This document shows positions 20,131-59,886 of a DNA stretch of 64,000 nt, piece after piece. Within the stretch, counting starts at the first letter, position 1, and each line of letters starts with the position of its first letter. Under the pieces are notes generated by a model. That model was not told the DNA's origin and searched no databases. It saw only the letters and a list, made by a program, of their open reading frames with translations. This DNA comes from Xylogone sp. PMI_703 (lineage: Eukaryota > Ascomycota > Leotiomycetes), in contig JAJTUQ010000001.1 in the NCBI GenBank assembly GCA_021399445.1, positions 8,742,001 to 8,806,000 on the forward strand. Reading direction: 5' to 3'. Position numbers and translations under genes: made by a program.

Positions 20131-20592
20131 TTCAATCCAGCATATGTACAGGTATTTGGCATTGATGATAGTTTGAGAGTCTTAAACAATTGTACATTAA
20201 AACAGTGTAAAAATAATGATAAACCGGTAACGAGAAAGACCGCCTATAAAAGGTGAAACATCTGTGTAACAGTACTATACTTAATCAAGATACATTGTAT
20301 ATTATAGTTTTTAATGTATAAATATTAAAAAAGAAAATTTAAGATTATTATTTTAAGATCAAAAATTTAAAACCCTTTAATATTAATTTTAAAAAAAAAT
20401 GGTTTTATGATTTTTACGTATTATATTAACTAACTAATTTTTAATAATAAAAATTAAAGATAATATTATGAATTTTTTACTTGGATAAATTCAAGTATAA
20501 TTAATAATTATTATAATTTTTAACTTCTTCAATTTCAAATTTCTTGTGAAATCCAGTTTTAAGAAATAAAAATGCTTTTACTATAAATGATC
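20131..20592. other. AT-rich spacer
   Basis: Promoter side of the fusion gene. It switches abruptly to extremely AT-rich sequence from about 20280 to 20540. No gene. Confidence 0.5.
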
Positions 20593-39159: not shown

Positions 39160-40480
39160 CTAAACGGCCTTCCCTCTTGCCCCTTCCCTGAGAAAATTGG
39201 ATAGTCCGTCATTTACAGGATACATATACGCAGCTTCAGGATCAAACTCCAGGCCAATTCTAGCCTCCGGGGGAATTCTAAGCTCTGGGTCGGCCAAACT
39301 TTCTAAGGTGCCGATTCTTTCTCTCCATGATTGAAATGCGGCTTTAAACTCATCGCCTCGAAAATCGTTTGGCCATCCATGCTCTGAGTACAAGTTCTGG
39401 AGACTGTAGTATTCGTTTGCCTCATCTTTCATTGCTCGTACTATCCACATATCCTGTGGTCGTGCACTGGTAAATAGTTCGGGATTTGTTCGTTGATAAG
39501 TAAAGTATTCTTCCGGTGGAGTCAGAATCTTTGGCTGACAGTCTTCCCACAAAGGGACCCAAGTCAGAGACATGAAGCGATCATTCCATTCTGAAAACAC
39601 TTCTGCCACTGGCCTTTTAGGTAGTTCAAAATATGGCGATTTGGTTTTATCTTTGCCTCCCCATTCGATAATAGTTCCTGTTAGCTATCAGTATAGTTCC
39701 GATTGATATAGTTATGATAAATAGTTACAGACTGTCCTGAGTATTATATATATAATGGGTGCCATAATATGCTCCTTCTGTAAGGCGGAAATCCCACGGT
39801 GCAATGTCATTATATCCAGTCTCGAGTGGATCACGTGCAGACTCAACATCATTCCAAGATGGGTTCAAATATGACATTGAAAATGTGTTGTGTGGTGCAA
39901 GTTCAAAAGAATCTGTCAAGCCCATATAACGTTTTGAGTTGATGTACGGAAGATGATGCATCAGCTCAATTACTTCGCTTGTGAAACCGGCCATTTTGAG
40001 GGTTTGCAAAGCAAGAGGAGGGTTGATATGAGGAGGAAACTGGATATCTGACGGCTGCAGATATTTCATTGACAATAATGTGTTGTATATTTTTTTCATC
40101 CCTTCTATTAGATCATGGTGATCGGTTGCCATTTTGCTGGAGTAAGCTTTAATTGAAACTCTCTCAGAGCACTCCTGTAAATCTCGTTGAAGCCAGTCTT
40201 GCTTAACTTTTCGGTGTCTCTCCCACATTTCATTTCGTGGTGGATCCCTGAGGCCGTCGTAGTGAGAGCGTTTAGTTCTATCCCAGGGTACTGTAACCTC
40301 GTCGTATGGGTCACAAAGATCGCCCCATCTAGCGCAGCTTTCACCTGTAGATTGCTTGAATATAAATACAACAATGTGCAGCTTCTAGTTCTCACATCTT
40401 GGATTCTTCCTATCACATTCTCTGCCTCTTTCAACACATAGTTTACAGGATTTTGAACGAAATTGGTCACTGAGGCTCAT
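39160..40480 (-). CDS. Zn2Cys6-type protein of unknown function
   Basis: Three exons (40396-40480, 39733-40344, 39160-39677) give 404 residues with consistent phases. The first splice joins CKLCVERGREC...RNPRC-type sequence to ESCARWGDLC, making a C-x2-C-x6-C-x6-C-x2-C-x6-C pattern like a binuclear zinc cluster at residues 12-36. The usual basic region is weak, so DNA binding is uncertain. The rest matches a fungal hypothetical family that I recognise only by its style: PHINPPLALQTLKMAGF, LMHHLPYI, PWDFRLTEGAYYGTHYIYNT, and a tail DFRGDEFKAAFQSW. No membrane segment or signal peptide. It lies immediately before the RiPP precursor on the same strand, but I cannot say whether it belongs to that cluster. 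Confidence 0.7.
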
Positions 40481-41329: not shown

Positions 41330-41575
41330 CTACCAGTCTGCATTTCTGTACTGAGGCTCAGCCTCCGCTTCACGCTTCCAATCTGCATTCCTGTACTGGG
41401 GATCAGCCTCCGGCTCACGCTTCCAATCCGCATTCCTGTATTGAGGCTCTGGTTCACGCTTCCAGTCTGCATTTCGGTATTGAGGTTCCGGCTCACGCTT
41501 CCAGTCTGCATTCCTATATTGAGGCTCAGCCTCTGCCTCACGCTTCCAATCGGCATTTCTGTACTGAGGCTCGGC
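41330..41575 (-). repeat. Six-fold tandem repeat encoding the peptide core
   Basis: Repeat units of 39-45 bp inside the precursor exon. Length differences are multiples of 6 bp, that is, whole dipeptide codon pairs. Synonymous third-base differences (for example GCC/GCA/GCG for Ala and GAT/GAC for Asp) with an unchanged core indicate purifying selection at the peptide level. Confidence 0.85.
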
Positions 41576-41742
41576 CTCACGCTCCGCGATACTCTGAACC
41601 TCAAAATCAGACTATGGAGAAGCTAAAAGTGAAGAAAGGGAGTAAGGACTATGCGAACCAAGGCGACTTTCTCTGTTGGTGCTGCTAAAATAGCATTACC
41701 AAGCAAGGCTGCTGCTATAACGCTGTATACGGGAAACTTCAT
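41330..41742 (-). CDS. Kex2-processed RiPP precursor with six QYRNADW cores
   Basis: Exon 1 (41659-41742) encodes a signal peptide (MKFPVYSVIAAALLGNAILA). Exon 2 (41330-41611) gives 93 further residues, 121 in total. I chose the 47-nt intron because it joins both frames in phase, but its donor GTTCGC is weak; donors at two neighbouring GTs are also in phase. After a short leader come six near-identical units ending in QYRNADW, each but the last followed by Lys-Arg. Between Lys-Arg and the core lie only Glu-Ala, Glu-Pro or Asp-Pro dipeptides, the substrates of Ste13-type dipeptidyl peptidase. This is the layout of UstA-type RiPP precursors and of alpha-factor pheromones. UstYa-type oxidases nearby favour the RiPP reading. 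The core has a Tyr for cross-linking. I know no characterised product with this core. Confidence 0.82.
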
Positions 41743-44290
41743 GATTGGCGGTGATGATGTAGACCTGAATAATAGTGCTAATTCGCTAGTTGGACGGAAG
41801 ATCTCGATCCTATGGTGAATTACTTGAAGGTAGGGGGATAAGAAGCGTTTATATACAGTCTTCTTCAATTCATTCGGAATTCACCAATACCCGTATTCAT
41901 TGTGTTCCCTCTTAGAAAGCCTATCTTGCATGCTTATTTTGCTAAAAATTCTAGTGTAACTTCAAGCTCTTACCTCTTGGCTACGTAGTACTTGACGACC
42001 ACCCATGCGCAGTGTAAAGAGAAGGCTGGCCTAAGCATCTCATTTACCTTGGCCAATTTCGAGGAAACTGGAGACGAGATGAACGGTACATAGTTTAAGC
42101 AAAGGAAATGGCGTCTACCCAATAGCAAAAGTACCGCACTATTTTATCTTTTAGAAAGAAACTACTGCTTTGCTATCATTCTGACTCTATAGAGAGCTAG
42201 GATTAACTTATGCCGATCTTTTTAAAGACCGTATTACAACGACGCTCCTATTACGGGCCTTATGGATGCTGTATAAAATATACAGGTCAGAGCGACTCAT
42301 ATGGCCACAGATTTGCGTGGTATCATTTCCGATTTCCACTCGCCAAGAGGGGTTTTTTCTGCAGGACTCTAGAGGTGTGCATGATGTGGATGCGTGGGTT
42401 TACGGAGATAATAGTATCCTGTCGGACCGACAAACTACCAAGATTGTCTCCTACCCGTTCAATCAACATTTCTATCATAAATACTTTGGGTTTTATCCTG
42501 TTTTAAAACAATCGTTTCCACTTGCCTCGTGAATAATGATTTTATAGACTATCTCATACCTCTCTTCTCCAAGATATGCACTCGCCAGTGAGCAACAGGA
42601 TCCTCTGCCGGACATAATTTTAGCCGCAGAATCCGTAGATGCACCACGTCAGCATTAGTAGTGCTGAAGATACTCCGTAGATGACTGCATAAGCTTAACT
42701 ACTAGTATGGAGCATATTTGGGATCACAATTATGCACCTCCGAGCAATCAGATCACTGGAAACCAGTTGTTTCGAGCAAGGGTAAGTGATGATGTGTGGC
42801 ATAAGGTAGTAAGCAAGTTCTGATTTGCAGTAACAATAGGTGGATGTGACTGCTCTTTCATAAATGGTGTTGTCCAAGGTCTTGGAGGTTTGAGTTAAAT
42901 ACACTTTTACATTGCCCAATCGTTACACCTTTGTTAAATTACGGTAAAGGCTGTAAGCTGGAGAAAGCATTGGGCAGATTCCAGATCTTCTTCTGAGGCT
43001 GTCAGGGTAGGCGTAGCTGTTCGTAGTTTGTTTCTGCAATAGGCAGGCATACTAAAGTAGGGGTATTTAGTGACCAATGGCACGATGCCGAGTCAAATCG
43101 GCAAAAACTAATTATCAGTACTTCGTAAAAGTTACGATTGCTACACTAGCGGTACTAGAAGAAATATCAGGAGAGATTTACTTCGGGCTACACATATACG
43201 CCTAAGTCCGCTCAGCCGGCTCATGCATAATATGACGGCGAGAACACATTTAACGTACGTGAGCGCTGGTCAGCCTCAACAAGAGAGAACCAGTGCCCCC
43301 ACCCACCCTCAACTCCTCCGTAAGCACACTTGCAGGTGTTAGGTCGTACAGCAGTTGGAAAAGCCACCCTCTATACACCCCAATAATACCTCCACTGCTA
43401 CAAATATTGGCAGCATCCTCAATTTGCTGCAATAAAAACGATAATTTGTCCTGATACCACAACTACAGAAGAACCGGCTGCATGTACACGAATATGGTAT
43501 GGTATTTGGTGCCCTAGAACCGGGATTTGCAAAGTACATAGCACCTTCCGATAAGAGTAATAATCACTGCGGCCGAAACTCCACATAGGAGGTACACGCA
43601 GTCATCCGGGGATACTTTCCTTTTGCAGGTCTTGACAGCTTCGGTTAAACGGTGTGGAGCCGTTGTTATGCACCGAATTTCTACGGCCTTGGCAGTTCCT
43701 GTATCATGTCGAACTCTCCCGGAGGGCGCCATGTGGGTTCCCATGTAGGTGGGTGAGATTTTACGGTTCGGGGTTTGAAGTTACGGTAGCTAAACTACCG
43801 CTGAGGAGGCCGCTTAGTAGAGAACACACGTTCGGTGTAATGAGCAATATTTTAGCGTTTTATGATTAACGGTTGTGGAGCACACATAGTCGCATCCGAT
43901 AGTGGATGCTCCATATCTACAATAGGCAATATTTAGTACATGCGAGGTATGAAAGAATTTGTTGCAGTAATGGTAGCGTAGATACAGGATACTACACGGC
44001 AAACGTGCTTTAGGCCCAGCACACCTCTAAGCAGTAGTGTTTCTCATAGTTATCCTTATCTGAGACTAGATTGTATGTTAAAGGAAGAGATTACATGATA
44101 TCCTGGAATAATGACATAAACTGATCAAAAAATAACTCTACTTTGTGTCATCCCATGATACTGTATCCCGGATTGTGTATCCTTTTTACGATCTAAGACA
44201 ACCTTCATTAGCAAACTTATGAAGTATTGTCACGCTCTATACACCCTGTAACTTCCTCAATTCTCTCAGTTTTGGCTGTGGGTGATAGAA
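41743..44290. other. 2.5 kb between precursor and first oxidase, no gene seen
   Basis: Open frames at 42210-42532, 42695-42919 and 43250-43870 occupy both strands without recognisable motifs. I do not support a gene, though a small unrecognised cluster gene cannot be excluded. Confidence 0.4.
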
Positions 44291-45498
44291 ATGGACTTGA
44301 AATGGCCCAACCTTCAAACTCCTTCCCACGGAAGTGATAAACTTTACAATGCTGAAGAAGCACAGCCTTTCATATCTGGGGAAGATTCCACTACTTCAAA
44401 TACTAGAGGGGAATATAGCATTATATTACGAGTCTTCGGGTTATTATTTCTTATACCGCTTCTATTTCTCAGCGGTCTCACTATCGTGAACTTTACTCGC
44501 ACCTTCAAATTTGGAACGTATGAAACCGGCTTCGTTACAGATTTTGGTATACTTCCAATAATTGGCGCACGTTCATTCAATGTAGGCATGTAAAATTGCT
44601 AACCACGTTGATTTGTGAAGGTCCTGCAAGAGCTCTGCTTCAGTCTGAGCAGCGACGATTCACGGGAAGTATTGTCTTCAATGCGGATGGCAAGCCATAC
44701 ATGATGGTAAACGATCCTAATGAAAGACAATATGTCGGCAGGCCTAGTCCGGAAATCGATAGTGCGTGGCATACAATTCTTGATGGTATGAGCCTATCAT
44801 TCTGTCCATCTTTGAGCTTCTTCGCTCTCTTACATGGCCTAACGGGCTGCTAGGTTACCATATCATCGTATCTGATGGGGAACAAAAGCGCATGTATGAA
44901 TCGGGTGGTATATATCGAAGCAAAGAAGGGTATCAAGTTGGGTATGTTATGAGATAATTACGAGCTATATTTCGACTTTTAAACTTGTTATTAGGTTTGC
45001 CATGTTCCATGCCCTACACTGTGTGGTGAGTTACTCTCCGGGGGCCCGTTAACAACCACTGAAAATTGACGTCTCCTAATAGAATGTGATTCGCATGTAT
45101 CTGGACCAAGACTACTACACCGACGTTTTTGCTAAGTGGGCTAAGCTTGACTTGAGACTGCATATTGGTGAGTGCTAAACATACTAGACTGTAGCTTTCC
45201 ATGGATGGGCTCAATTTCTGGTGTTTAACAGATCTCTCCGAGTAGTTTGCACAGATGCTATCTCCATACTGTACTAACGTATTCGCCAGATCACTGCCTT
45301 GACTATATCCGCCAGAGCATCCAGTGCCATGGTGATCTCACTCCCGTCCCAATGCGATGGTGGGAAGCAGCAAACAGAGTCTATTCTGATACAGCATCAT
45401 TGCATACTTGTCGACCGTTTCAAGACATTAGGGACTGGATAACTGAGAGACATAATGGAAGTTTAGCAGTTACGAAACTGACGGATAACGAGTTCTAA
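44291..45498 (+). CDS. UstYa-family (DUF3328) oxidase 1
   Basis: UstYa proteins are copper-type membrane oxidases that cross-link RiPP cores. Six exons (44291-44546, 44621-44785, 44854-44941, 44995-45025, 45083-45167, 45290-45498) add up to 277 residues with all phases consistent. A cytosolic N-terminus is followed by one membrane segment at about residues 44-65, then RFTGSIVFNADGKPY, YVGRPSPEIDSAW, and the two hallmark motifs: HALHC (175-179) followed by NVIRMYL, and DHCLDYIRQSIQCHGDLTP from residue 209. The family start MDLKWPNLQ at 44291 was chosen over an upstream GTG. The last intron is long (122 nt) and has a CTAAC branch. No damage. It is the closest oxidase to the precursor. Confidence 0.88.
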
Positions 45499-46053
45499 AA
45501 TCGTTTTTGGAGCGACCCCTACCATCTTTGATATTGTCCTTTTGAGTTCTTGGTCATAGCTCGTTATAACAATAAGATAATAACCATTAAGCAAGACAGT
45601 TTATCTCATCCAAAAGATTCTGCCTCATCTGAAACTCGACCTTTGCCATTTACTAGGGGCGGAGAAAGTAGTTCAAACAGTTTATAGTAAAGATCTGGAT
45701 TATCATGATGTTATCACTCTTGGACCATCTCTCCTTCATGAAAGGCTCCGCGCTGCTCTTTATGGCATGCGTCCTAGCCTATCCAATGGGTCTGTTAGTT
45801 AGGCTATGGGTTGGTTAATAGGCTATGAAATGGAACAATATATTTCGCTATTATGATGAAGCAACTTAAGTCAATTGTTACTAGCCCCAAATAGCAATGC
45901 GAGCTATATGCACTGACTACCGTACACAGTCTCAGTAGAAGAGATACGTGTAAATACATGCATTCTACAGCTAACTAATCTAGAACCACTTTTTTATGTA
46001 ATCATTCCACTATTGTATGTTTTACTTTCCTCCAACAAACGATCCGCCCGGTG
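45499..46053. other. Intergenic, no gene seen
   Basis: No supported gene. A short frame near 45716-45830 has a hydrophobic start but no further support. Confidence 0.45.
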
Positions 46054-46164
46054 ACAGTGGTGGGAAAAAAATTCAAAAAAATTCAATAATATTTAATTTA
46101 ATTTAATTACCAGATTTTGAAAAAGTAATTAATTAGTAATTAAATTAAATTAATTCCAACACTG
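46054..46164 (+). mobile_element. hAT-type MITE
   Basis: A 111-bp AT-rich hairpin with imperfect terminal inverted repeats (ACAGTGGTGGGAA at the left, complementary to TTCCAACACTG at the right) and a TTAATTTAATTTAATTA-type inner palindrome. It is flanked by an exact 8-bp duplication GCCCGGTG (46046-46053 and 46165-46172). CAGTG ends and an 8-bp target duplication are hallmarks of hAT transposons. It is too short to encode a transposase, hence non-autonomous. Confidence 0.8.
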
Positions 46165-46432
46165 GCCCGGTGTCCGTAAAGCTCCGATTGTACCGTATAT
46201 TCTCAAATCTACTAGAGTTATACCATCCGGGGGGGGACGGACCTTGTGTCAGCCGCTACCCATACAAAAGGAGTTCAAGATCCTTGTATAATCGACACAA
46301 TCTAATACGTGTTAGGCTAGCCTAACTCTGGTAGATGTGAGAATATACGGTAGTGCTATTCTGCGACTGAAGATCTGACCGGAAACGAGACACTTCCTTG
46401 AATGTTTCCCCTTGGCACCAAGAGTTGTATTA

Positions 46433-47920
46433 CTATCCCCCCCCCATAATACTTGTCACCCACAAAGGCCCTGGTAAGGGCTTGAGCCAGGGAGGTAGCC
46501 GGGGGGGTGTCAGCTTACGGCTCGTATCGTAATTATCTGCTGGAGAGTATTTGTAAGTATATTTCTATAAGAATTCCTATTACAGTATACTTCTTACTAC
46601 TCCTTGTTTTTGTACAATCATGATCGAAGGTAAACAACTTAATTTCTAATACTTTGTTGGACCTCCGTTAACAATAATCACAATTTTACACCTATCCCAC
46701 TAACTATTGTACAGATTCTGAATATATGAATCAGGAACAGCATTCTAAGCCTGTCTGATTATTTCCCTCAACTCCTCCAAAGGTATAGAAGCTACATTAT
46801 ATCTTACGTGCCAGTAGTGTTCCTGAATCTAATTTTTCGTTCAATTCCACACATACTCAATTAAATTCAGGTCTGGAGAATATCTAAGCCACTTGATATT
46901 TTGAATATGACGTAATTTAAGATTTCTGGCTGTCAACCGTGATCTGTGTAAAAATGTATTATCGTGCATGTAAGTCATCCAAGGATATTGAGCCATAAGT
47001 ACCTCGAACTCTGAGAGTATATATCGATCATATTTCTCTGAATTCATCTTGCCCCATTCTTTCTTCCAGAACTTAGCTGGCTCCTTTTTACCTGCTATAA
47101 TTGAGCCATGGAATATCCAAGTAGGCGTTTTCGAATATTTGTGTTGAACTACACCAATATCAAGTCGATCAGAGCTATCCTTTTTCACTGTAGCATATGT
47201 CGTTGTATGTGCTTTTTCCATAGCCCAAACCTCGTCTGTGAATATCTGACTCTATAGCCGTTGTAGTGTCCAAGTTACTGCTACTTCAGCAAAGGCAACA
47301 CGCTCTTTACACACTTCCGGGTCTTCCGAATATCTCTTTTTTGTGGTTGTCCTCCGGCAATAACCAAGAAGATCGAACGCTGTATGAATTGCCATTTCTC
47401 CAATATCTTGTAATCTAAGCTCGGGAGCTCTCTGAGGGATTTGACGGTATGGTATTCGACGGTGTGAAGGGGAAGCTTGAAGTTAACGATCAAGGTCAGC
47501 TCTTTTGGGTGAATCAAGGAGTGAACCACGGCCACACTTCTTTTTCTGAGGGGTGAGTGGGTTTTTTCTGGTATATATGATTTGTTTTTTGGTGACGTGT
47601 AACGTTCGTTGGATTTCCTCATATGTGTGACCAAATAGAAGAGCTGTTTTGATTGCAAGCCGGTCGTCGCGTGTAGTCATACAACTGTTTTCCCTCTGAG
47701 GGCGTTGATTCACGAAGGGGTCGTCCATGTTTTGGTGTATACCGAAAAAATAGTAGTATGAAGTACAGTATAGTAGAAATTATTATAAAAAGTACTTACA
47801 AATACTTTCTGACAGGTAATTAGAGAATACGAGCCGTAAGCTGACACCCCCCCGGCTACCTCCCTGGCTCAAGCCCTTACCAGGGCCCCTGTGGGTGACA
47901 AGTATTATGGGGGGGGATAG
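46433..47920 (-). mobile_element. Tc1/mariner element with long inverted repeats
   Basis: A 1488-bp element bounded by CTATCCCCCC...GGGGGGATAG and flanked on both sides by the TA target duplication (46431-46432 and 47921-47922). Terminal inverted repeats of roughly 125 bp (46433 to about 46557, and about 47796 to 47920) match closely in opposite orientation. The interior carries a degraded DD34E transposase on the minus strand. It is inserted between two UstYa-family genes. Confidence 0.9.
46751..47728 (-). pseudogene. Tc1/mariner transposase, nonsense-mutated
   Basis: Start MDDPFVNQRPQ at 47728, then a helix-turn-helix region (AIKTALLFGHTYEEIQRTL). The catalytic parts are FTDEVWAMEKAHTT and MHDNTFLHRSRL...YSPDLNLIEYVWN, with 34 residues between the second Asp and the Glu (DD34E). 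Reading the same frame through reveals in-frame stops, including TAA after KRADLDR, TAG before SQIFTDE, and TGA/TAG where family Trp codons are expected after EYVWN. These are G-to-A or C-to-T style changes, so the copy is inactive and RIP is the likely cause. Confidence 0.82.
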
Positions 47921-48899
47921 TATTAGTTCCCATGAAGATTTTGTTCCCAATAGGTTCAAAGGCTGGAAGCCCAGAAATACGCGGTCGCTTAACTTCATGG
48001 ATACAGGACAACCTTCTCCGAATAACTGGTGAACTGCTCATGTCAGACTTCAAATTCAGGGCAGCAAAACCTTGCAAAATGCACGGGAAGGTGGACGCGA
48101 TGCCGACACATATTGGTGGAAGGTGGCGATAGTATCTCTAACCACTACACGTACGAAAGATACTGTTTCCCGCTGATGAAAAAGAGTTTCTCCGACGAGC
48201 GCAAGCCGAGTACACATTGAGTAGTAAATAATCATATTATGCAAGGGTTTTATGCCGAAAGCGAATGACAAGCTGTAAGTATTTGGCATAACTTAAATCT
48301 TACCAGTGCTGTACTTGTTTGCAACTTGGCCTCACCGAACCTGACATGGGCGGCATTTTAAGCATAAAATAAGGCATCTATTAGTGGGGGTTGTCGACCA
48401 GAGCGACTGCCTAGTTGGTTATAATGCTCACAGACCAGAGGATCTTATTATTGGTAAGAACAAGTCTGGCTGCTAAATCTCAAGGGTTAGAACGAATACA
48501 GCTAGCCTAATAGGGTTATATGTCCGAGGTCATACTGGAGGAAGGAGCTAGAGTGCGTATATTTACGAGGCATTGTTCGTAGTATGGTGTCAGACTTCGT
48601 GGGTGGATATACTTGATGCTGTGGCACAGTGCACTTTACTCAGCTAACTCAATTTACAGTGCTGCACATAAGCAATCCCCAACGTAATGTATATCCCGGC
48701 TTAATTTTGTCAGAAACATTCGTTCGATATACTGCACATTGTGAGAATCTTGGGTATCTTGAATTATCCAACCTTGCGATGAAACTGCAGTGCTACCCAC
48801 TACACAGTATACCTCTATACTTGCATGAACAGCTAGCTCACGCCATATTGTCTTTCATCAGTTAAACAAGTAGTTGACACCAAAACCTTTAGCAAACGA
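47921..48899. other. Intergenic, no gene seen
   Basis: Flank between the transposon and the divergent UstYa-like gene. No supported gene. Confidence 0.5.
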
Positions 48900-49577
48900 A
48901 TGATAATTCCGCCCGAAGTCTTTTCTACAATTTATCTCAAGATTATGGCACGTTATTCACTATTGAGATCGGAAATCAGCGAAGACAATCTAAAACCCGG
49001 CCATGAATCCAGAATCTTGAGTTTCAATTATTTGGTTCTGAAAGGATTAATTCTTTGCCTCGCGTTGTATGGCTGTTTTGATCTTGGGAGGAAAGCATGG
49101 ATGTCCTGGGATCGCGGAAGCTCCTGTTCTTGTGGCCAGTCGCCGGCTGAAGCTATCATTCGAGGTTGCAAATTCGATCCATATGCAGCTGCTTGGCTGC
49201 CAGATCATTGTCGTGATGATGACCAGATTCAAGAATTCTGGCAGATGGAAATGCTCGCCAATAGCTCTTGGAGTTTCTACGACCACACAAGCAAGAAACA
49301 GCTCACAGTTGAAGAAGTCTCGATGATGGCCGGTGTTGTCAAGGATCATCATAAGAGTGAAGCCTTGGTGACGACCACTACAAATTGGCATCATATGCAC
49401 TGTCTCTACGTTCTACTGAAAGCATTTCGGTCAAAGCACACCGGAATAATAATGGAGCCCAGATATACAGAAGACCACCATGCTACACATTGTGTCAAAA
49501 GTGTTTATGGTTGGATCAGTGCACAGCCTGCTGCACGCGTAGTGGATAGCGAATCTGAAGTTGATATATACGCATAA
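48900..49577 (+). CDS. Divergent UstYa-like membrane protein 2
   Basis: A single-exon frame of 225 residues. One membrane segment lies at about residues 44-60 after a polar N-terminus. The luminal part has Cys pairs (SCSCG), a GCKFDPYAAAWLPDHCRDD segment, then a histidine-rich NWHHMHCLY (163-170) and DHHATHC (192-198). The two HxxHC-like motifs recall UstYa, but the conserved surroundings differ (no DYxRQ). It belongs to the fungal family often found beside DUF3328 genes, with GCxxD..A..W..HC. An alternative start MARYSLLRSE at 48945 fits the family's usual N-terminus equally well. Inferred role: partner or alternative oxidase in core modification. Confidence 0.75.
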   Translation: MIIPPEVFSTIYLKIMARYSLLRSEISEDNLKPGHESRILSFNYLVLKGLILCLALYGCFDLGRKAWMSWDRGSSCSCGQSPAEAIIRGCKFDPYAAAWLPDHCRDDDQIQEFWQMEMLANSSWSFYDHTSKKQLTVEEVSMMAGVVKDHHKSEALVTTTTNWHHMHCLYVLLKAFRSKHTGIIMEPRYTEDHHATHCVKSVYGWISAQPAARVVDSESEVDIYA

Positions 49578-51911
49578 TATTATTGTTAATTTCTCTCCTT
49601 TTTCATCTTCTTTTGGATTTAAACCGGCTTCAGCTATTATTTAAAGAAAGGGACGTATTAAGGTATAATTCGGAGAACCCCATCTGCTGAAAGTATTCAA
49701 TCAGAGCTGCCCATCCGCCTATGAAGAAACAATTGACTCCTAGCTTAGGCCTGCGATTACAGGATATTTGTATACCTTATTCCTGATGTATGGGGTTTAG
49801 CTGTAACACTAGAAAGTATGGTAATACCTTCGTGGCCATTGAGTGATACATGATGCGGAGATAGTAGATGTTTATCGAAATCCTTTATAGAAGTCTTACG
49901 AGCAAAATTGTGGTTAAAAACCTTAATCTACTTGCTCTTTTATGATTCCCACTCAGCTCCCGAATACCATCCTAGGATGCTACCTTGTATCTTAATGGCA
50001 TATTAACTATATATTCATCGAAGAGGATAATGATCATTTGAATCAAATTGAATCGTTGTCGGCTGATCCCGACAGCTTGGAGCCCTACAGAACCTAAGTA
50101 ATTTGGGGCTGACGGTTAAAAAATCAAACTGCGAAGAGAACTCACGGATCCAAGCATGTGTACTGCGATTACACGTGTATAATATTGTAAGAGTACATTG
50201 GGAAGTAGAAATCCTGGGTAGTGCGCGTACCCCCTGAATATGGGGCCTTACGCTGCCGAAATCATAAAGAAACAACAAGAAGCAGCCGAGGCACTGGTGC
50301 AACTAGGATTACTTAATATCCACAATCATGTAAACCCCCCCTACCGGTGGGTTTATCTTACTTGTGTCCATAATACTGGCGAGCCACTTAAATTCGTCCC
50401 AGGCCCCCCCTAATCATGCATGAACTGAGTTGGTGCCCACCGTATTACGATATTAATTTCAGTCTTAGTCCCTGAACATCGAACTATTGCTCTCGCTTGT
50501 AAGGCCAAGTTATTCGTGAACAGGATCAACCGATTCGGAAAGTATTCGAAGGGTAATATGATATTTAGTGCTGTTGTACAAAAGTCAGTTATTCAAGTTT
50601 GATAAGTTAATTACATAACACAGTACAAAATCAAGAAAAAACCCATCGGAAAGACGTAAAGGTGACCAACGGCCATCAACTGTGAAACCATGCCTTCGGC
50701 GTCTGTAGGGTTAACCAGGGCAAGGGGGTCGATAATACGGTAACGAGAAACCAGTGGAGTGTCCAACTAAGCATATGGCAAGCAGCCGCAATTCGGGACC
50801 GAAATGACGAAAAAAATACTTTACTGACCCTCGGGACCTGCGGACTTACAGCACTTATTTCATCCACTACCGGCCTGCCATAGGCTATTCATTCTAGGAA
50901 TAGTTATGTGCTCGGCACCTTGAGCTCCTCAAAAAAAAACTTCACATGGCGAAGCCGCACTTTCAGCGACTATTGTTCAAACAGCGCCGAACTTATCACC
51001 TATGTGTGCTTACAGTTCATATTTGATAATAAGATCCGGAAACAGTTATAGTGGATAGGAGCCTTATTTTACCAAACTTCTTGAAGTTAATTGACAATTA
51101 AAGTTAATGAATTGAGTAAGAGATGGTTAAAATGTACTTCGTAATGAGTTTTGGTGTGGGAGAGGTGACATCGTGTCGGTGATTTACCGACAATAAGTCC
51201 GGCTGCGATTTCGATGTCACCTTCCGCTTCGTAAAGTGTAGTCAGCGGAGAATTGACGATTGGCATAAGGCATACGGAAAAGAGTAGTTAAGTATTGCAA
51301 AGTAGGGGAGACTTTCACTTCTCCTTATTAGGTAAGTAACTTCTCAATTTTGTGTCGACTTAACCAAACTTGGCGGCTTTTACAGCCAAGCTTGCCAGGT
51401 ACTGTAATATCATTATTCGGGGTTATCCCCTATTAGTATTGGGCAAATACTCAATCGCTGGCCTTCCGTAGGTCTGACGCACTTTGCTGACGCGCCTACC
51501 ACTACGTGTGGCGAGCTTGGCTAAGATATCGTGGATATGTAAGGTTTTAGGCTGTTTTAAATTTTATCAATGATATCAGTTACAGGGTACTCCAGTAAGA
51601 TGCTAAATTCTCGTCGGTAGCTTACACGAACCCTGGCGGCATGTTCTTACCGGGAGCGGCTTTCCCGGCCGGCGAAAGGAATACCGTTGATATGCACGTC
51701 CCATAGTACAACCTGGCTATAGGACGCGGCATCATTAACTTGATCAAGAGCAAAAATAGACAGTTGCAATAGGAAAATGTACTAGCTTCCAGGACTGTTA
51801 CTACAATTCCGCTTAGATTTCAAGATTGCTCTGTCGTTAAGCATCAGAAACAAAGATAACTCGACCGTAGACTTTTATTTCTGGCTAGCTTTTGGCACAT
51901 AGAACCGATAA
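49578..51911. other. 2.3 kb intergenic, no gene seen
   Basis: Only short frames with no recognised motif (for example 50015-50302, 50676-50867). No supported gene. Confidence 0.45.
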
Positions 51912-53968
51912 ATGGGTAAGAACTCTTCCAGCCAAGTAATTGATAATAAATGAGCAATCAAGATATTGATTTGCATTTTAGGTGGCTCTCGAAGCCTTAG
52001 CGGATGTTGGACGTGTCGATTACGCAAGAAAAAGTGCGATGAGGAAAGGCCATTCTGTAGTACCTGTAGCTCACTGGGGTTATACTGTGATGGTTATGAA
52101 GAGGTACCCTCTTGGAAAGATGGGCATTCCAAAGAGAGCCGATATCTTGCCATGATCAAGTCACACATTAAAAGTAATTTCAGGAGGAAATGTCTACTTC
52201 GAGCGCAGGCAAAACGTCATAATCACATGCATACTGAGGGTGAAGGTTATGATCACGCTATAGAGGCACTTACTCCTCCTCAAAGTGTTTGTATGCCGGC
52301 AGGTAACTCCCATAACGATGTAACCCTACCGACAATAGAGGGTAACGGGGCCGTACGACGAGAGTCTACGGAGAAGCCAACCCTGGAACATGGTTTGTTT
52401 GGTATTCCTCAATGAGAAACTATCTGCTGATGTATTATAGGGCTACAATCTGTGGATAATACCATTAGAGGACACCGGGGTATTCTCGCTGACGAATCGC
52501 AGAATGTTGTCTGGCTCAGTTTAATGAACACTTCTTCAGCTCTAAAATCAGTCCCACAGCTATCATTGCCTGATGTGGGCACTAGCCAACTAAAATGTCT
52601 CTCAGCCTCAGCTATCGATACGTCGACTTTGAGTAGTGACAGTGTCAGTTATGATATCCGGCGCTCGAAAGCCCGGGAATCAGAACTTGTCATGTATTAT
52701 ATTGACACCGTATTTTACATCCAGTTTCGTTTTTACTCGTTCGCATTTAGGACAGATCGGCGCGGCTGGCTTCATGAGTTACTGAGTGAAAAACCATTTT
52801 ATAATGCCTGTCTTAGCCTTAGCTCGTATGCTGATGCTATGCTACACACGGAGATAGCAATTGAAAAAGAAGTGAAGTTACGAGAAAGTGACGAATACTT
52901 CTCTAAAGCTATTGCTGAATTGAATTGTCGTCTACAAAGTCAGTTTAGAGGGGCGGTTCCGTCTAGAGATGACATAAGTATTGTTATGTGCATCATTCAA
53001 CTAATATCTCTAGAGGTATGGAGACTTATTATGATATAAAAAAATACTATTTGACTCTGATTATTTATTAGCAATTTCAAGGAGGCAAAGGCAACTGGAA
53101 AATACATTTACAGGCCGCCATAAATCTCCTGCATCGTCTTACCCCAGTATTAGAAAATTTGATGTCAGCTACTAAAGCGTCGACTGGCATTCCAATCCAC
53201 TCCAAAGGAAGAAACCCAAATTTCTGGCATTTAGAAGAAATGCTTTTGAAATTTGCCTTTGCTATATTCTTGTGGTTTGAAACAATTGCTTGCACATTGG
53301 AAAAGTTTCCTTCATCACTCTTCCAGTCATGCAAACATCTTTTAGAGCCTAACCTTATAGATTTGACGTGGGTAACAGGTTGTGAAAACTGGGTTTGGCT
53401 ACAGATATCAGAGATAGCAGCTTTACAATCCTGGAAAGATGACTGCCAGCAGCTGGACATATTAAGCTTGAGAGAATTGACTCGAAGAGCTACAGCAATT
53501 GAAAACAAATTAACAAAAAGGGATGAGAATAGGACTGAAAGTGTGGGACGTATACCTTCCATGTCGCCCACTGGCATCGATCTGCATGATATAAGTGCCA
53601 CCATTACGAGAATATTTAGTTTAGCTGCATTGACATACCTCCATGTTGTTGTCTCTGGTCCCAATCCTAATTTACCAGAGATCCAGTCGACCGTATCCAA
53701 AACCCTGGCCAAATTAAAGGAATTGAACGATCGGCGCTTGATTAGAAGTTTGGTATGGCCATTTTGTGTGACAGGGTGTCTAGTGGAAAAGAAAGACCGG
53801 ACGACTATCAAGAGCCTTTTGATCGGGACCTCACTCGAGGAACCGGGTAATCTATGGTCCGCTTTTCGAATCATAGAAGAGTGCTGGAAGATGAGAGACA
53901 GCAAGCAGGGACACTGGGAATGGAGACGTGCTATGGCTAGTTTGAATGAGCACGTATTTCTCATTTAG
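51912..53968 (+). CDS. Zn2Cys6 transcription factor, candidate cluster regulator
   Basis: Four exons: 51912-51915, 51982-52401, 52441-53015 and 53072-53968, giving 631 residues with consistent phases. The first exon is only ATGG. Splicing it through a GTAAG donor to GTGGCTCTC makes MGGSRSLSGCWTC..., which is the usual short N-terminus before the zinc cluster. Cluster cysteines are 10, 13, 20, 27, 30 and 37 (CWTCRLRKKKCDEERPFCSTC). The long C-terminal part has the helical fungal regulator region (YYIDTVFYIQFRFY; QFQGGKGNWKIHL; FWHLEEMLLKFAFAIFLWFETIACT). No frame damage. It sits between UstYa-like genes 2 and 3 on the same strand, so it is the best candidate for the RiPP pathway regulator. Confidence 0.85.
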
Positions 53969-54765
53969 CGGGCATGTTTATTATAACCGGAATGAGATTG
54001 GGTTGATTCATGTAAGATAAATCTAGATCTACCGTGATATCTGTAATTGAATTCTGGGAAATAAACCTCTTGTGGCTCCTAGGCGAGAGGCACGAGGGGG
54101 CATTTTAAGCTATTGACTTTTGCGTCAAACTATCGAATAAGTTAATCAGTCTCCGTCATTTTGCGAGTTCAATTTAAAGAACTTGAAGCCAGGCTTCCCA
54201 GTCATATAGGAGGAAGCGTCGTCAGGTGTATGTACTAATTCAAAGAAATTGACTCACGGTTATGGCCATAACTCCCAAACTTACGCTAATAATTAGCTTG
54301 TATCAACAGCTAGGTAACATAATACTTCCATATTTGTATATTGTCTTCGATTATTTACTGGCGCTAATGCTGCGGATGATGAATTGGGAACAATATATGG
54401 ATGCGGGAGGAAAAAACTCGCCTCGCCTTTCCTAAGATGTCAAGAGCTACGCCAAGGGTTCGGAATTCTAGAAATCTTATGTAAATAGTCCTGGTTGCTC
54501 GCGACGGCTTTCCGGATTATTCGCAATTATATGTGCTGACAACTACTTTAACCATTTCCTTCTTTACAGCTGTTCACTTGTTACGATTTAGATTCTTCCT
54601 GTGTACGACGAGGAGCTGGCATTATTATATCGAATTCCATATCATCCATGCAGCTCAACGTAACACATTCGGTGTGTTGTACCTAGCTCAGCCTGCCATC
54701 TAAGGAGGCCATATTTACGAGCTATTATTTCGCAGTTCTCTCTCAACCTTGAGCGCTTAGCAGCT
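53969..54765. other. Intergenic promoter region
   Basis: No supported gene; upstream region of UstYa-family gene 3. Confidence 0.5.
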
Positions 54766-55706
54766 ATGAGTGACTACGATGTAGAGGAAGATGCTCTGTC
54801 GGAAGATAAAGCAGAGACCTGGAGATCACTGCTCGACGGAACAATAAAGCGCCAGCAGCTTGCATGCGGAGGCAAACGATGCCAATGTAGTCCTGGCCGA
54901 GAATTGAGAATTACAGACATCGCCAGCATAATTCTGTTTTGTTTGTCAGTTGTTTTCGTCATATCTGCCCTTCGAATATCAAAACAATGCGGAAGTATTT
55001 CTCACTTTTAATAGTAGTTGCAATACTGCGAAAGTTGAATGGCTGATTTAAAGTTCTAGTTAGTATTCATGAGGAATTGTTGACAGTGCGATTTATGCCT
55101 GATGAATTATACAATCCTCCGCTAAGAACGCAAGAGAGCGACCTTGCGTGGACCTCTTATCCAACTGGGGGTCTGTAAAGATGTATATTCCACACTTTTC
55201 TATTTACTTACTAACTATTCATTCATTAGGGTATGTGTTAATCAATGATTCAGCAAGAAATATTGCACCGCCGTCCCTCGTCAGGGATGATCTTGGGGGC
55301 ATGCTTTATTCGGTGTCCGGCTTCCATCAAGTACATTGTCTGTATGTTACAGTGCCCTTCACATTTGAAAATCGTATACTGAATTTATTCCAGAGCCATA
55401 ATTCGAAACGCTTGGTTTCTCGTTCTTGAAAATGGACCAGATGCATTGGATAAAACAGAGGCATTTCCGCATCATCCACATGGTGATCCGCTCGCGCCAC
55501 ATGTCCAACACTGCTTCGACTATCTTCGTCAAAGCCTTTTATGCCATGCTGATAACACCTTGGAACCATTTGTAAAGAGTGACGGCTTCACCTTAACAAA
55601 CCGTGGGTCTAGTGGTTGGGGAGCAGTTCACCAGTGTAAAAGTTGGGATTCGCTCTCCAAGTGGGTTGAGGAACACGACGCTTTAACACACGGGTGGGAG
55701 GGATAG
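54766..55706 (+). CDS. UstYa-family (DUF3328) oxidase 3
   Basis: Four exons (54766-54994, 55060-55170, 55230-55341, 55394-55706) give 254 residues with consistent phases. A cytosolic N-terminus with an acidic start (MSDYDVEEDALSED) precedes one membrane segment at about residues 49-69. The luminal domain contains GGYVLINDS and GFHQVHCL (HQVHC at 146-150, split by an intron right after Cys, as in family genes), then IIRNAWF, and finally HVQHCFDYLRQSLLCHADNTLEP from residue 187. The middle stretch between the membrane segment and HQVHC is short and lacks the usual YxGxPxxxxDxxW form, reading YNPPLRTQESDLAW instead. No stops or frameshifts. Confidence 0.87.
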
Positions 55707-57351
55707 TGTGAACCAGTTATCTTATAGAACGGCGACTCAGCAGCTGAAATTTTGGGTCTGAAATAACATTGTGTGAGCTAAGTAGCGCATTAAATTTCAT
55801 GAATAATGATTCTGGAGTTCTACACAAGACAGGATAAACTATAAAGTTTTATTATTTCAAGTTTCTATATCTTACTTGAGTCATCTAGGGATTCTGGTAT
55901 ACCGATCTATGTGATCTATTTTATTATAATGTATTCTCCGCAATCCTCCAGAATCCAAGCTTTTGTGTTCTTGTGAACATACAAGTGCAAGAAATATCAA
56001 GGCTATACATTCCCCTTGATAGAATTGGCGTTGTAATAGTTATCATGTGGCCTTTGCCAGTTATGGAAATAAAACTCCCTGGCCTGCATATTTTGTTGAT
56101 TACCACCTGTCATCAAAGAACAACGCCCTGGATAGAGTGTGCACAATTCTTTCTTTGTTTTTGTGTGTACAACCTTGAATATGCACTAATCCTGGGGCCT
56201 AGTGTGGTCAAGTTGGTATCTATAGAGAAACAACTATGTGCAGGTAACCTGCTTACACTTTGCAATGGGTTATTAAAGAACAAGTGAGGTAGAGCTGCCA
56301 TGGCCTGTCTCCATTGTTACAGGTGTATGTAGCAAAGGGTGTTTGAATATACCAAACTACTTAAGATTAATGAAGCTAGCATTAGGTAGAAGTTGAATTG
56401 AAATGTCATATTCACTATGTAAATAATTTCACGCAATCCACTAGTGGCACATAAATACGACGTGTGGTATTTGCTGTAGCAAAAATCTTGAGAATGGGTA
56501 CAATCGGACACAAAATGCCTCATAGTGAGGGTCTGGTCTGCATTCCGAAGGTCTATATGAGTCAGCACTACTTGTGGGTTGTAACTACTGTAGAAGTGTA
56601 GCTTTGGATGAGTTTGGAAAGGCGAGCCGGATCTTAACGAGCTCGTGTAATATTTCCGAATATAATGAATTCGTCTTATGCAACTAAGCACTCTTAATAA
56701 TATATATCATCGCCGACAGGGACTAGGCATAACTGGACCTGATATCAGTTTTCACGAAATTTGAAAAGGTGAGTTGGATCTCACAATAAAACTCAACATG
56801 TTTCCTTTATGGTGTCTAGAAATGTAGACTCGACTTCTTTCATTAGCCAATTGGACTCGTCGCTCAACCTAACACTACTGCTGATAGATGCCTATAATAT
56901 ACAATCACGTAATTGTATCCCGAGAGATATCTATTGGCCTGAGCTAAATCCACTCATAGTGCGTAGATTTAGAGGGGCTACGAGTGGATTTAGTTCGGGC
57001 CTGCCTATTTGATGTCGGGAGTGTTCAGCTGAGCGACGTGCCCGATTGGCTTGAATACAGGTCTGGTCAAGAGGATCCATATATTAAGTGCAAGCATAAC
57101 TGTTCTGACATAGTGGTACATTAGTAGCTCCATGACTAGTCATTAAAGTTTGTACAGGCATAAAGGTACGAGTTCCCTTTGCGGTTGAGTTCAGAGGTTG
57201 AGTTATATTTTCTTCCGGGGGTTTTATACACTGCTGTATCTCTTATCCCCGGACTATACTATTGCTCCCACGACCGGTAACTTCACTGTCTTCACTCTGT
57301 GTAGTATCCTCTAACGGGATATTATAACCATAGCGATTTGAGGTATATATA
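55707..57351. other. 1.6 kb intergenic, no gene seen
   Basis: Frames at 55973-56287 and 56317-56691 lack motifs and are A/T-biased. A small palindrome (CACTCATAGTGCG / TACGAGTGG type) lies near 56950-56990. No supported gene. Confidence 0.45.
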
Positions 57352-58367
57352 ATGGGCCGGAACTCCGGGAGTGGTTCCAATTTCAGTCATCAATACGAGC
57401 CAGTAGAAGAGAACCATGATCAAGATACGGTAGATCTTCAGAATGCAAAGCCATACACATCGCCAGTCCGTAGTACCCGTGGCTCCGGAGTGGTGTTTTG
57501 GATACTGGTGGTCCTGAATTTGTTGGCTCTAGCTTTAGTGTATAGGTACACGGTCCGTGAGGACTGTGCGTGCCCAGCAAGAGGTGGCAGTAGAACGTTG
57601 AACGTTTTGGACCAAAGTAGGTGCTCACGACGTTGATATTGGGCAAGCTAATTAGTATCCGATCATAGTCCCGATGAAAAGTGTTATATTCAAGCCTGAT
57701 AGTCGATTCTCTGGTAATCCTGTAGACAAAAATTCTCCCTGGCAAGAAATGAACCCCAGTCTGTGCTTCCTTGCCGATTCTGAACCGAATACTAAATGCT
57801 AATACTTAGAATAGTGGGACATGGTTTTATAGAAATTGCGGAACCTTGGAGATGGGGTCTCGAAGGTGGGCACCCAATGGGTAATCCTTCTTTACCAGGA
57901 AGCGAGGGCTACTTGATATCGATGTATCATCAGTTGCACTGCCTTGTAAGCGCATTCTATCTTATAATTAATCTAATATATGTGCCTTTGGGTTCTCCGT
58001 TGGCGTATCCTCCTCCTCTTTCCCTATAACTGAGATATCCCTTTTTTACTAATGTTACTCATTTCGCCAAGGCTGCAATCAAAGCAGCTGTAGCAGGAAT
58101 CAAGCATAATAAACCTGAGCATTTGAACCACTGTTTTGATTATATCCGCCAGGTAAGAGCAACATTTCTCGTACTTCTTTATAAACTGACAGGTCTGTCT
58201 AGGGAATCATGTGTGCCGGGGACTTAACACTTGAACCTACATCCCTCAATGGTGTGCAGACTAATGGTGCAAGTGGATGGGATGTCGAACACTACTGCAA
58301 AGATTGGGATGCAGTATACAGCTACGCGTCACGTCATGCTGTCAATAATAGAACCAGCATATTGTAA
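57352..58367 (+). CDS. UstYa-family (DUF3328) oxidase 4
   Basis: Five exons (57352-57616, 57669-57758, 57815-57945, 58072-58152, 58203-58367) give 243 residues with consistent phases. One membrane segment lies at about residues 46-64, followed by a Cys pair (CACPA). The luminal domain has RFSGNPVDKNSPWQEM, the form of the YxGxPxxxxDxxW motif, then HGFIEIAEPWRWG, GYLISMYHQLHC (HQLHC at 157-161) and HLNHCFDYIRQGIMCAGDLTLEP from residue 179, and a WDVEHYCKDW tail typical of the family. No damage. With the neighbouring regulator and oxidases it forms the right half of the RiPP cluster. Confidence 0.88.
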
Positions 58368-59004
58368 ATAATACTCTGACCCCTTAATGGTGATATAAAC
58401 TTAAATCTGTTGCTTTTATATCAATATGAATCTTAACACTGAAGCATTGACTACCTAAAAGTTTCAAGACAAGCATCTTTTATCAATCAGAGTTATTTAA
58501 CTTGTAACTACTACGCTTACAAAATCAAACTCATACCTAAAGAAGGGATACACTGTTATCAGCCTTAACTATCTTCAGATATTGACTCTCATGATGTATT
58601 CAAATGGCATATAATCTTATATGACTAATAGGCAGTCCCGCCTAGGAACAGAGTTGGCTTGCGAGCAGAATTTGGAACAACTGATTCAATAATTAAAGAC
58701 CTCTAATAGCGTTCCTTAGACAAGACACTAATATTATCGAATAGTAGCAGGCTAGTAATATGCTAATGTTATTGGTTATAAAATTCGAAGCTAACGGAGA
58801 GTGACACGGGTACCGGAAAATATATATGCATTGTATGCATGATCATACCCTGTTAGTGGCTTATAGAATGCTTCTATTTCTGGCATTGCTTCTGCTAATT
58901 GACGTCATCCTGCCTCGATACATTTTATGGCTTGTCCCGAATTATCAGGCTATGTTATTCCTCTGAAATATACAGATGCTATATCTCAGTGCTTTCAGCA
59001 TAGA
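58368..59004. other. Intergenic, no gene seen
   Basis: Convergent 3' flanks of UstYa-family gene 4 and the GST gene. No coding feature. Confidence 0.5.
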
Positions 59005-59886
59005 TTAATCTTTAGTATTGCGCCCACTAGCAAGATAGGCAGCAACACGGGGTCGTTCCTCAAACGCCTTTCTAAATTTCACTAATACATCCGGCATGGT
59101 GGCCTAGAGGTCCCGAAAGACAGGATCAGTAATGATATCTCGAAACATTTAGATGAATGATACACTAACCGGCTGCGCTCCTGTCTTTTCGTTATTATCT
59201 ATAGATTGATAAATTGCGAAATCGGTATAGGTGACTTTATCCCCAAGGAGGAATGGACCGCCATGCTCAGAATAATACTTCGAAATAACATTGTAGAACT
59301 CCGGCACGGTCTTGTCTTTATATTCATCTGTTGGCTTGGAGAGGTTGGCAACCCATTTAGACTAAATGAAAGTTATTATATCAACCGATCCATGATTCAA
59401 TAATCGGAACACCTTACCCGCCAGTCAATATACACGTCGGCAACCGCATCTACGACATACTTTTCCAGGCTAGTTTCACCATCGTAAGAGCCCAGCTCGC
59501 GTGACAGATATCGCAAGATGGGAATATGCTACAAAAGTAAGAAGTATCAGGGTAACAACTCCTGTAGGTTTTAACTTTGAGTCTAACCTGTCGTAATAAA
59601 ACTCCATTGTAATCAAGGACGGGTACCAGCCCAGTGATAGTAATTCCCTTTGCCTTCAGGTCGGCGCTTGTTTTCGGCCATGTATCGTCAAAAGCGTAAC
59701 GGATATCCTCAAATGCGATACCTGCATCTTTCAAAAAGAGACTATGGTACGAATTGATTAGTTTATCGTTTCTGTCGTGGATTCCATCCCAGGACGCCAG
59801 CTGACAAATACCTACCGTACTACTTCCCCGCGACCCAAGCTACCGAGTTCGAGATAGTGCAGGATAGGTTTAGCTGAAGGAGGCAT
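59005..59886 (-). CDS. Glutathione S-transferase
   Basis: Conjugates glutathione to electrophiles, cytosolic. Five exons (59816-59886, 59588-59741, 59418-59528, 59170-59361, 59005-59103) give 208 residues with consistent phases. The N-terminal thioredoxin-fold half starts MPPSAKPILHYLELGSLGRGE and contains the active-site Tyr of HYLELG and the LVPVLDYNG cis-Pro loop, with RQ...HIPILRYLSREL after it. The C-terminal helical half has GGPFLLGDKVTYTDFAIYQ, the N-capping region, and a tail RPRVAAYLASGR, as in sigma/mu-like fungal GSTs. No damage. It lies 640 bp past UstYa-family gene 4 and may serve in detoxification or in a late step of the peptide pathway; that link is inference. Confidence 0.85.

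Follow-up and report, generated by a model that had tools for sequence, protein, structure and literature searches.

The closest described systems are the dikaritins, or ust-RiPS (ustiloxin, phomopsin and asperipin-2a), in which a secreted precursor carries repeated cores separated by KR and UstYa/DUF3328 genes lie within a few kilobases. A tyrosinase is present in the ustiloxin and phomopsin clusters, and is not known from that of asperipin. The locus described here, from a 64,000-nucleotide stretch of Xylogone sp. PMI_703 that was analysed as a whole (the window), resembles these systems in its repeated cores, its nearby UstYa genes and a putatively secreted precursor. However, its spacers are of the Ste13 type, built from XA/XP dipeptides, and its core, Q[YF]xNx[DN][WF], has no obligatory Tyr. 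The partner enzyme that stays constant is a divergent UstYa relative whose score does not reach the Pfam cut-off. No tyrosinase was seen in the modelled region, none of the window proteins scanned (a part of the open reading frames) giving a Pfam match to one.

The Agaricomycete Ste13-type KEPs (QYKAPSW of Coprinopsis, SGVAADW of Pleurotus and SGTGEASAADW of Lentinula) described in the available part of PMC9769878 also combine KR and XA/XP with a short core and a C-terminal Trp, and QYKAPSW shares the N-terminal Gln of QYRNADW. Those peptides were detected as linear or pyroglutamate forms, whereas UstYa-family genes adjoin every member of the present family. Ascomycete α-pheromone precursors have the same Kex2/Ste13 layout and multiple identical copies, but here the core is unlike the two-Cys type of Leotiomycetes, UstYa genes are neighbours, and three paralogues carry different cores. 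On the enzyme side, DUF3328 copper enzymes such as CctR place a TM helix beside HxxHC(x)nHxxHC on paired helices, as does U2, the divergent relative, in its predicted structure. CctR hydroxylates a non-ribosomal cyclic peptide, according to the available text of PMC12435403, whereas U2 falls short of the PF11807 cut-off and would act on a putative peptide substrate. Kex2-repeat/UstYa pairs, including some of the Ste13 type, are already known; in the accessible portion of PMC7329392, DUF3328 genes accompany 22% of 7878 Kex2-repeat precursors, and of the 76 precursors homologous to putative basidiomycete pheromones, 17, of the Ste13 type, have such genes beside them. What is new is this subfamily, together with a partner enzyme below the Pfam cut-off.

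The QYRNADW precursor

The precursor gene (41330..41742, minus strand), recognised from its reading frame, encodes a signal-like leader and six units of (XA/XP)n-QYRNADW-KR, the last QYRNADW copy running up to the stop codon. The initial annotation had proposed a secreted precursor with six such copies, and this was borne out, with the strand assigned as minus, one intron and a signal-like start. Exon 1 runs from 41742 to 41668 or 41659 and exon 2 from 41611 to 41330; the intron, placed from the reading frame without RNA, starts at 41667 or 41658 and ends at 41612, giving a protein of 118 or 121 aa. The N-terminus is hydrophobic and signal-like, with a 12-residue mean of 2.32 from residue 8 (hydrophobicity only, no signal-peptide predictor).

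The repeat array (41333..41611, minus strand) holds six identical cores with the spacers EAEP, EAEAEP, EPEP, EPEP, EPEADP and EAEAEP. At the dibasic Kex2 sites, KR precedes five of the six cores and ER the first. The cores differ from one another only synonymously, at five of the seven codons; in 15 pairwise comparisons, 43 codon differences were synonymous and 0 nonsynonymous. A scanner for repeats with dibasic sites gave two matches in the window, both being this array in two frames, and none in 30 sequences of 64 kb from a first-order Markov control, which does not imitate coding sequence. Because of the synonymous-only differences and the empty control, the six-copy repeat is not due to chance. 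A literature search on the core sequence gave no match, and no peptide of this kind from Xylogone was found, as judged by titles and abstract starts.

Paralogous precursors in the genome

Two paralogous precursors are present in Xylogone sp. PMI_703, on contigs C3 and C21, with 69% and 65% identity over the array. The cores are QFSNKDW in one and QFRNTDF/NF in the other. Across the three precursors, Q1, an aromatic residue at position 2, N4 and an aromatic residue at position 7 are constant, D6 is nearly so, and Cys is absent from all cores. Position 2 is Phe in both paralogues, position 7 is also Phe in one, and Tyr stands in the window core; the Tyr/Trp-containing core of the initial annotation thus fails as a general rule for cross-linking. 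XA/XP dipeptides make up all spacers (20 of 20 units), every spacer is of even length, and KR stands before 18 of the 20. Read as Kex2 and Ste13 sites, these spacers define a predicted 7-mer core, as in α-pheromones and linear mushroom peptides. The cores in C21 show 85 synonymous and 7 nonsynonymous codon differences, while those in C3 are codon-identical, with no readable selection signal. Given the ratios of 43:0 in the window and 85:7 in C21, the cores at these two loci are under purifying selection.

The three loci are unlinked, and each holds a U2 ortholog and at least one UstYa gene. The precursors lie 2.7-4.4 kb from a UstYa match at every locus, the closest PF11807 match in the window being at 3.5 kb. 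The window and C21 share the order precursor (minus), UstYa (plus), U2 (plus), which is rearranged in C3. In C21 an isolated N-terminal exon resembling that of U1 has the look of a relic. Beyond precursor, UstYa and U2, no gene was common to the window and the 20-kb C3 and C21 stretches at E 1e-6. The interval 41.3-59.9 kb had been taken as one cluster, a unit that we reject since the genes found again at the other loci are limited to precursor, UstYa and U2 types.

Genome-wide (50 Mb), the pattern KR-[ED][AP]-[ED][AP] gave 44 matches against 22 in a reverse-read control, and its clusters were confined to the three precursor loci, with five matches each. The looser KREAE pattern gave 79 matches against 39 in its control and formed four clusters, which besides the three precursors include one other Kex2-repeat gene. 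In all four clusters a PF11807 match lay 0.6-4.4 kb away, 1.3% of the genome being within 5 kb of such matches; these searches target precursors of this layout and miss other layouts, and the three loci are paralogues rather than independent samples. The two paralogous loci support a UstYa-associated Kex2-repeat precursor, from sequence comparison, far more strongly than the window does by itself. This part of the proposed UstYa-type RiPP cluster stands, while its one-unit boundary and its Tyr/Trp rule do not, and the Ste13 spacers had been overlooked.

A different Kex2-repeat gene of this genome, similar in its core end and with three GSSNNADW copies at C1:5.90 Mb, has its nearest PF11807 match 948 kb away; NADW-ending peptides therefore need no UstYa. 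The scanner also returned antisense and other-frame shadows of the arrays, a doubtful frame (L002) and a low-complexity repeat (L024), which were not counted as precursors. Searching a protein database with the precursor gave six matches with xDW or NNW cores and KR, of which the three named ones are from basidiomycetes. These homologues are distant and share mostly common KR, Trp and acidic-Ala/Pro features; the search did not return the C3 and C21 paralogues, so it says little on absence in other fungi.

UstYa-family genes and their neighbours

The UstYa-family genes U1 (44291..45498, 277 aa, five introns), U3 (54766..55706, 245 aa) and U4 (57352..58367, 243 aa), all on the plus strand, score 137.6, 96.4 and 78.8 bits against PF11807, for which the cut-off is 25 bits. 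Each has two HxxHC motifs, and all of U1 to U4 read through intact in the window gene models, in agreement with the three intact classical UstYa genes first annotated. U1 has a single hydrophobic N-terminal segment. Its C-terminal exon is nearest to a UstYa gene at C12:5.80 Mb (52%) rather than to those of C3 or C21, and its one match among PDB sequences (a tRNA ligase, E 0.68) was taken as chance. The best match of both U3 and U4, among five other loci compared, is the UstYa of C1:2.618 Mb, and neither was found in the paralogous precursor loci.

U2 (48900..49577, plus strand) is a single-exon gene for 225 aa, with a TM anchor and HxxHC motifs at 164 and 194. Its annotation as a divergent UstYa relative proved sound in that both motifs are kept, although its 19.1 bits against PF11807 fall under the cut-off of 25, and by that score it is not a Pfam member. 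The AlphaFold2 model (pLDDT 71.9, pTM 0.61; motif blocks 86-89) has a long N-terminal helix and places both HxxHC motifs on helices. By motif and predicted structure, U2 is probably DUF3328-like. A Foldseek search with this model gave none at 0.001; the 136 matches at E ≤10, the best at 1.7 (ferritins), were taken as no match. The U2 alignment likewise gave 0 matches among PDB sequences at E 1.

The orthologs of U2 at the two paralogous loci share 69% and 68% identity with the window copy and 72% with each other, the next best match being 41%. Their dN/dS is 0.11-0.16, with dS of 1.0-1.6 and dN of 0.17-0.19, and on these values the linkage of precursor and U2 has outlived a long neutral divergence. 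U2-type proteins have 42 matches in the genome, 32 of them within 10 kb of a PF11807 match. Searching proteins with the U2 alignment gave 14 matches, five from Xylogone sp. PMI_703 itself; among the other nine, the three from Scytalidium lignicola, Stipitochalara longipes and Talaromyces stipitatus are at 21-23% over the whole alignment, and none of the 14 is a close ortholog from outside Xylogone sp. PMI_703. U2-type proteins make up a divergent UstYa-like group that is well represented in this genome and, being near or below the Pfam cut-off, could escape mining.

The Zn2Cys6 regulator (51912..53968, plus strand; 631 aa model) was confirmed by Zn_clus (39.7 bits) and Fungal_trans_2 (191 bits) matches, with its first exon re-modelled. 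For the annotated GST (59060..59886, minus strand, low end approximate), a partial gene model, the C-terminal piece matches GST_C_3 (50.5 bits), and an N-terminal piece of 84 aa gave no match. Neither the regulator nor the GST comes up again in the stretches of C3 and C21. The pathway membership of U3, U4, regulator and GST is unproven because they are not common to the three loci. Between U1 and U2 lies a Tc1/mariner-like element (46.4-47.9 kb) with a weak DDE_3 match. Between the modelled features there are three more ATG-to-stop open reading frames of at least 80 aa, two of them mutually overlapping, and multi-exon genes made up of short exons may have escaped notice.

Candidate pathway and competing readings

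We consider it probable that the Kex2/Ste13-processed repeat precursor yields the heptapeptide Q-Y-R-N-A-D-W, modified in the secretory pathway by UstYa-family (DUF3328) membrane oxidases. The signal peptide would take the precursor into this pathway. Kex2 would cut after KR, Kex1 would remove K and R, and a Ste13-type dipeptidase would strip the XA/XP units. The trimming would leave exactly seven residues, and the Gln at their N-terminus may form pyroglutamate by cyclisation. At least one UstYa-family protein with two HxxHC motifs would carry out the oxidation of the peptide, with cleavage either following or preceding it. Because U2 is the enzyme conserved with the three precursors, it is proposed for a common step on the constant residues, and the variable classical UstYa genes may serve core-specific steps. 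A Tyr-phenol ether is ruled out as the general modification, since two of the three cores carry Phe at position 2.

In each of the three gene sets, UstYa-type enzymes go together with a repeat peptide of pheromone style, which suggests an undescribed family of enzyme-modified small peptides. A more tentative proposal, which we regard as possible but doubtful, is that U2 and its relatives form a branch of their own among the UstYa-type oxidases, mostly overlooked by Pfam mining, that acts on Ste13-trimmed pheromone-style heptapeptides. If true, the fungus would produce three or more pheromone-like peptides in oxidised form, pyro-Q[YF]xNx[DN][WF], with a Tyr-independent modification, bridging α-pheromone-type processing and dikaritin-type chemistry. 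Three diverged pathway copies, which differ in their cores and keep one enzyme constant, amount to a within-genome experiment of nature. With them one can test the residue requirements of a UstYa-type oxidase, the need for Tyr and the idea that RiPPs may include pheromone-style peptides.

QYRNADW might instead be a linear pheromone-like or signalling peptide, released by Kex2, Kex1 and Ste13, perhaps as a pyroglutamyl form, and secreted unmodified, with the UstYa genes serving otherwise. We judge this rather unlikely, but it is a serious rival because XA/XP spacers, here in 20 of 20 units, mark linear α-pheromone-like and mushroom peptides. QYKAPSW and pyro-QYKAPSW were obtained from the Coprinopsis precursor in Pichia, and linear -AADW peptides occur in Lentinula and Pleurotus (PMC9769878, available part). 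The xDW/NNW cores with KR in the database matches, the named ones basidiomycete, and the GSSNNADW gene without UstYa neighbours also fit an unmodified product. The genomic context speaks the other way: a U2 ortholog and UstYa lie near all three precursors, which have nothing else in common, and in the accessible portion of PMC7329392 (7878 precursors) DUF3328 neighbours are given for 0 yeast α-factors and 3 of 216 fungal pheromones.

That the precursor is the α mating pheromone of Xylogone sp. PMI_703 was rejected as highly improbable, despite its α-factor-like layout, since there are three paralogues with differing cores, Leotiomycete pheromones are described with two conserved Cys (PMC6339444, as far as its available text goes), and UstYa neighbours speak against it. 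The accessible portion of PMC7329392 also lists a pheromone type to which the genus Scytalidium belongs. No Cys-type pheromone was found in this genome, with one weak match lacking a credible gene and one lacking flanking KR, but these searches covered one core and one pattern, and a miss says little. It is also very unlikely that the cluster is decaying or silent, its genes intact but the pathway unused, and U3, U4, regulator and GST accidental neighbours. The Tc1/mariner-like element and the relic-like exon in C21 would suit such a state, but U1 to U4 are intact in the window, and U2 has retained a dN/dS of 0.11-0.16.

The precursor and its core peptide

The precursor gene (41742-41330, minus strand) encodes 118 or 121 residues; its single short intron was positioned from the reading frame. 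A hydrophobic N-terminus is followed by six identical QYRNADW cores; the initial annotation had already named a secreted precursor with six core copies. When all 50.13 Mb of the genome (25 contigs) were searched in tblastn fashion with this precursor, 10 matches came up. Two of them are clear paralogues (E 4.6e-28 and 9.8e-27), and the others include Kex2-repeat genes that match less well. The paralogue on contig C3 carries 6 x QFSNKDW, and that on C21 carries 8 x QFRNTDF/QFRNTNF.

The spacers of the three precursors are even-length runs of XA or XP dipeptides in 20/20 cases. KR stands ahead of 18 of the 20, and the first copies have ER (window) and QR (C3). Judged by sequence, all three carry the Kex2/Kex1/Ste13 layout, which is that of alpha-pheromones (PMC6339444). 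The Ste13-type XA/XP feature was absent from the initial annotation. This layout sets the core at seven residues with Gln first. The DNA of the six window copies varies at five of the seven codons; across the 15 pairs, 43 differences are synonymous and none is nonsynonymous, which means that the peptide itself is conserved. In the C21 cores, synonymous differences outnumber nonsynonymous ones 85 to 7, the 7 coming from one D/N change. The C3 copies are identical in DNA, so selection is not readable there.

UstYa-family genes and their conserved linkage

U1 (44291-45498), U3 (54766-55706) and U4 (57352-58367), all on the plus strand, are intact, spliced and over the cut-off of the Pfam UstYa/DUF3328 profile PF11807. 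U2 (48900-49577, plus strand) is a single-exon relative that, at 19.1 bits, falls short of the 25-bit cut-off. All four contain two HxxHC motifs. The initial annotation had proposed three intact classical UstYa proteins and one divergent relative. Both motifs were present in 13/13 and 14/14 U2-like proteins in two separate alignments, and in 29/29 U2-like ORFs from 30 loci, where one motif was required when choosing ORFs. PF11807 was matched by 8 of 13 U2-like proteins at E ≤1 (best 1.1e-5), a count that does not separate those over the Pfam cut-off from those under it. In the AlphaFold2 model of U2, built from 14 sequences (pLDDT 71.9, pTM 0.61), the N-terminus forms a long helix and the two HxxHC motifs lie on separate helices. 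No convincing likeness to this model was found among solved structures. The predicted layout is like the two-motif helix layout of CctR, a DUF3328 protein described as a binuclear copper enzyme in PMC12435403, and by analogy U2 may contain copper. A Tc1/mariner-like element lies between U1 and U2 (46400-47930; inverted ends recognized by eye), with its transposase ORF in two pieces and a DDE_3 match under the cut-off.

Among 42 U2-like matches in the genome, the two closest to U2 sit at the C3 and C21 precursor loci (69% and 68%; next 41%). When the window was compared with 20-kb stretches around these precursors at E 1e-6, only precursor, UstYa-type and U2-type genes were common. One UstYa gene is common to C3 and C21, with exon pieces 55-85% identical, and a U1-like N-terminal exon, apparently a relic, remains on C21. 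The U2 pairs have dS values of 1.00-1.55 and dN values of 0.165-0.190 (ratios 0.11-0.16). Because the set was kept together at such divergence while no other neighbour was shared, the sequences point to a joint function. Of the cluster initially drawn at 41330..59886, the precursor, UstYa-type and U2-type parts recur, whereas the Zn2Cys6 regulator (51912-53968, plus strand) and the GST-like gene (59060-59886, minus strand) have no counterpart in the stretches from C3 and C21. U3, U4, the regulator and the GST may belong to the pathway. Compared with five other loci, U3 and U4 best matched a UstYa protein in a locus with AGADW repeats (44%).

Kex2-repeat genes across the genome

Xylogone sp. 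PMI_703, whose contig C1 contains the window at 8742001-8806000, is placed in Leotiomycetes incertae sedis. Its genome gave 108 PF11807 matches, many being exons of one gene, which together with the U2-like matches group into 55 clusters by 15-kb linking. To our eye, from this genome alone, the set is unusually rich.

The pattern KR-[ED][AP]-[ED][AP] had 44 genome matches vs 22 for the backwards pattern; the window, C3 and C21 each account for a cluster of five (15 in all), and the other 29 are single. KREAE had 79 matches vs 39 backwards, with four clusters, the fourth (C19:416.8 kb) consisting of NPLIASGAYGTY repeats in a different Kex2-repeat gene. The nearest PF11807 matches to the four are at 3547, 2652, 4443 and 631 bp; sequence no more than 5 kb from a PF11807 match makes up 1.31% of the genome. 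We give no p-value for this proximity, since the three paralogues cannot count as independent samples and both patterns are biased towards this layout. A GSSNNADW Kex2-repeat gene with three copies and its own leader (C1:5903719-5903967) is 948 kb from the nearest PF11807 match, which speaks against a universal link between Kex2 repeats and UstYa.

Further Kex2-repeat genes beside a UstYa or U2-like gene, drawn from the extracted loci, have an 11-fold KRDFAEPLLGE repeat (L040), AETEILGDNDSYTLSPKR (L055), SSGTAVGPVAEEVVETYDKR (L059) and a 12-fold EPYKITVGQR repeat. The AGADW gene (C1:2620600-2620900) adjoins UstYa and appears disrupted, because its repeats read in two different frames. A DDGSIRIPVTGVPPPKR / DDGSIRIPVTGVPPP gene (L033 429-689, minus strand, C19 near 864 kb) adjoins a U2-like gene whose nearest PF11807 match is 444 kb off. 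Given this distance, a precursor may suffice as the partner of a U2-like protein.

Fate of the heptapeptide and neighbouring genes

We regard a RiPP-like pathway, in which UstYa-family proteins would modify a heptapeptide from a pheromone-style precursor, as the fairly probable reading. As the conserved partner, U2 is our candidate for the enzyme common to the three loci. Q1, aromatic 2, N4 and aromatic 7 are constant in the cores of the three precursors, and D6 mostly so. Two cores have no Tyr, so a Tyr-phenol bond was ruled out as the common step. The main rival is that the heptapeptide stays linear and unmodified. This has precedents in QYKAPSW of Coprinopsis and in Pleurotus and Lentinula peptides ending in -AADW (PMC9769878); it is to be set against the joint retention of the precursor with UstYa-type and U2-type genes.

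The combination of Kex2-repeat precursors with DUF3328 is not new in itself. PMC7329392 reports the pairing (22% of 7878), with DUF3328 neighbours at 17/76 homologues of putative Ste13-type basidiomycete pheromones. The core had been called unrecognized among known products, and we likewise found no report of QYRNADW or of Xylogone peptides in open-access literature, judged mostly from title-level information.

Adjoining the precursor is a multi-piece gene (39160-40384, minus strand), three ORF pieces of which were scanned and matched no Pfam family. A single 1167-aa ORF (16678-20181, minus strand) has FAD_binding_4, phosphomevalonate kinase and phosphoribosyltransferase domains over the cut-off and a weak methyltransferase match. 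With neighbours read by eye as GTP cyclohydrolase I, 2OG-Fe(II) oxygenase, nucleoside hydrolase and ribokinase, it is perhaps a nucleoside or pteridine-type cluster. Two NLR-like genes (29480-32171 and 60656-63328, both minus strand) combine an NPHP3_N/NACHT-type ATPase with ankyrin repeats, the latter read by eye in the second gene.
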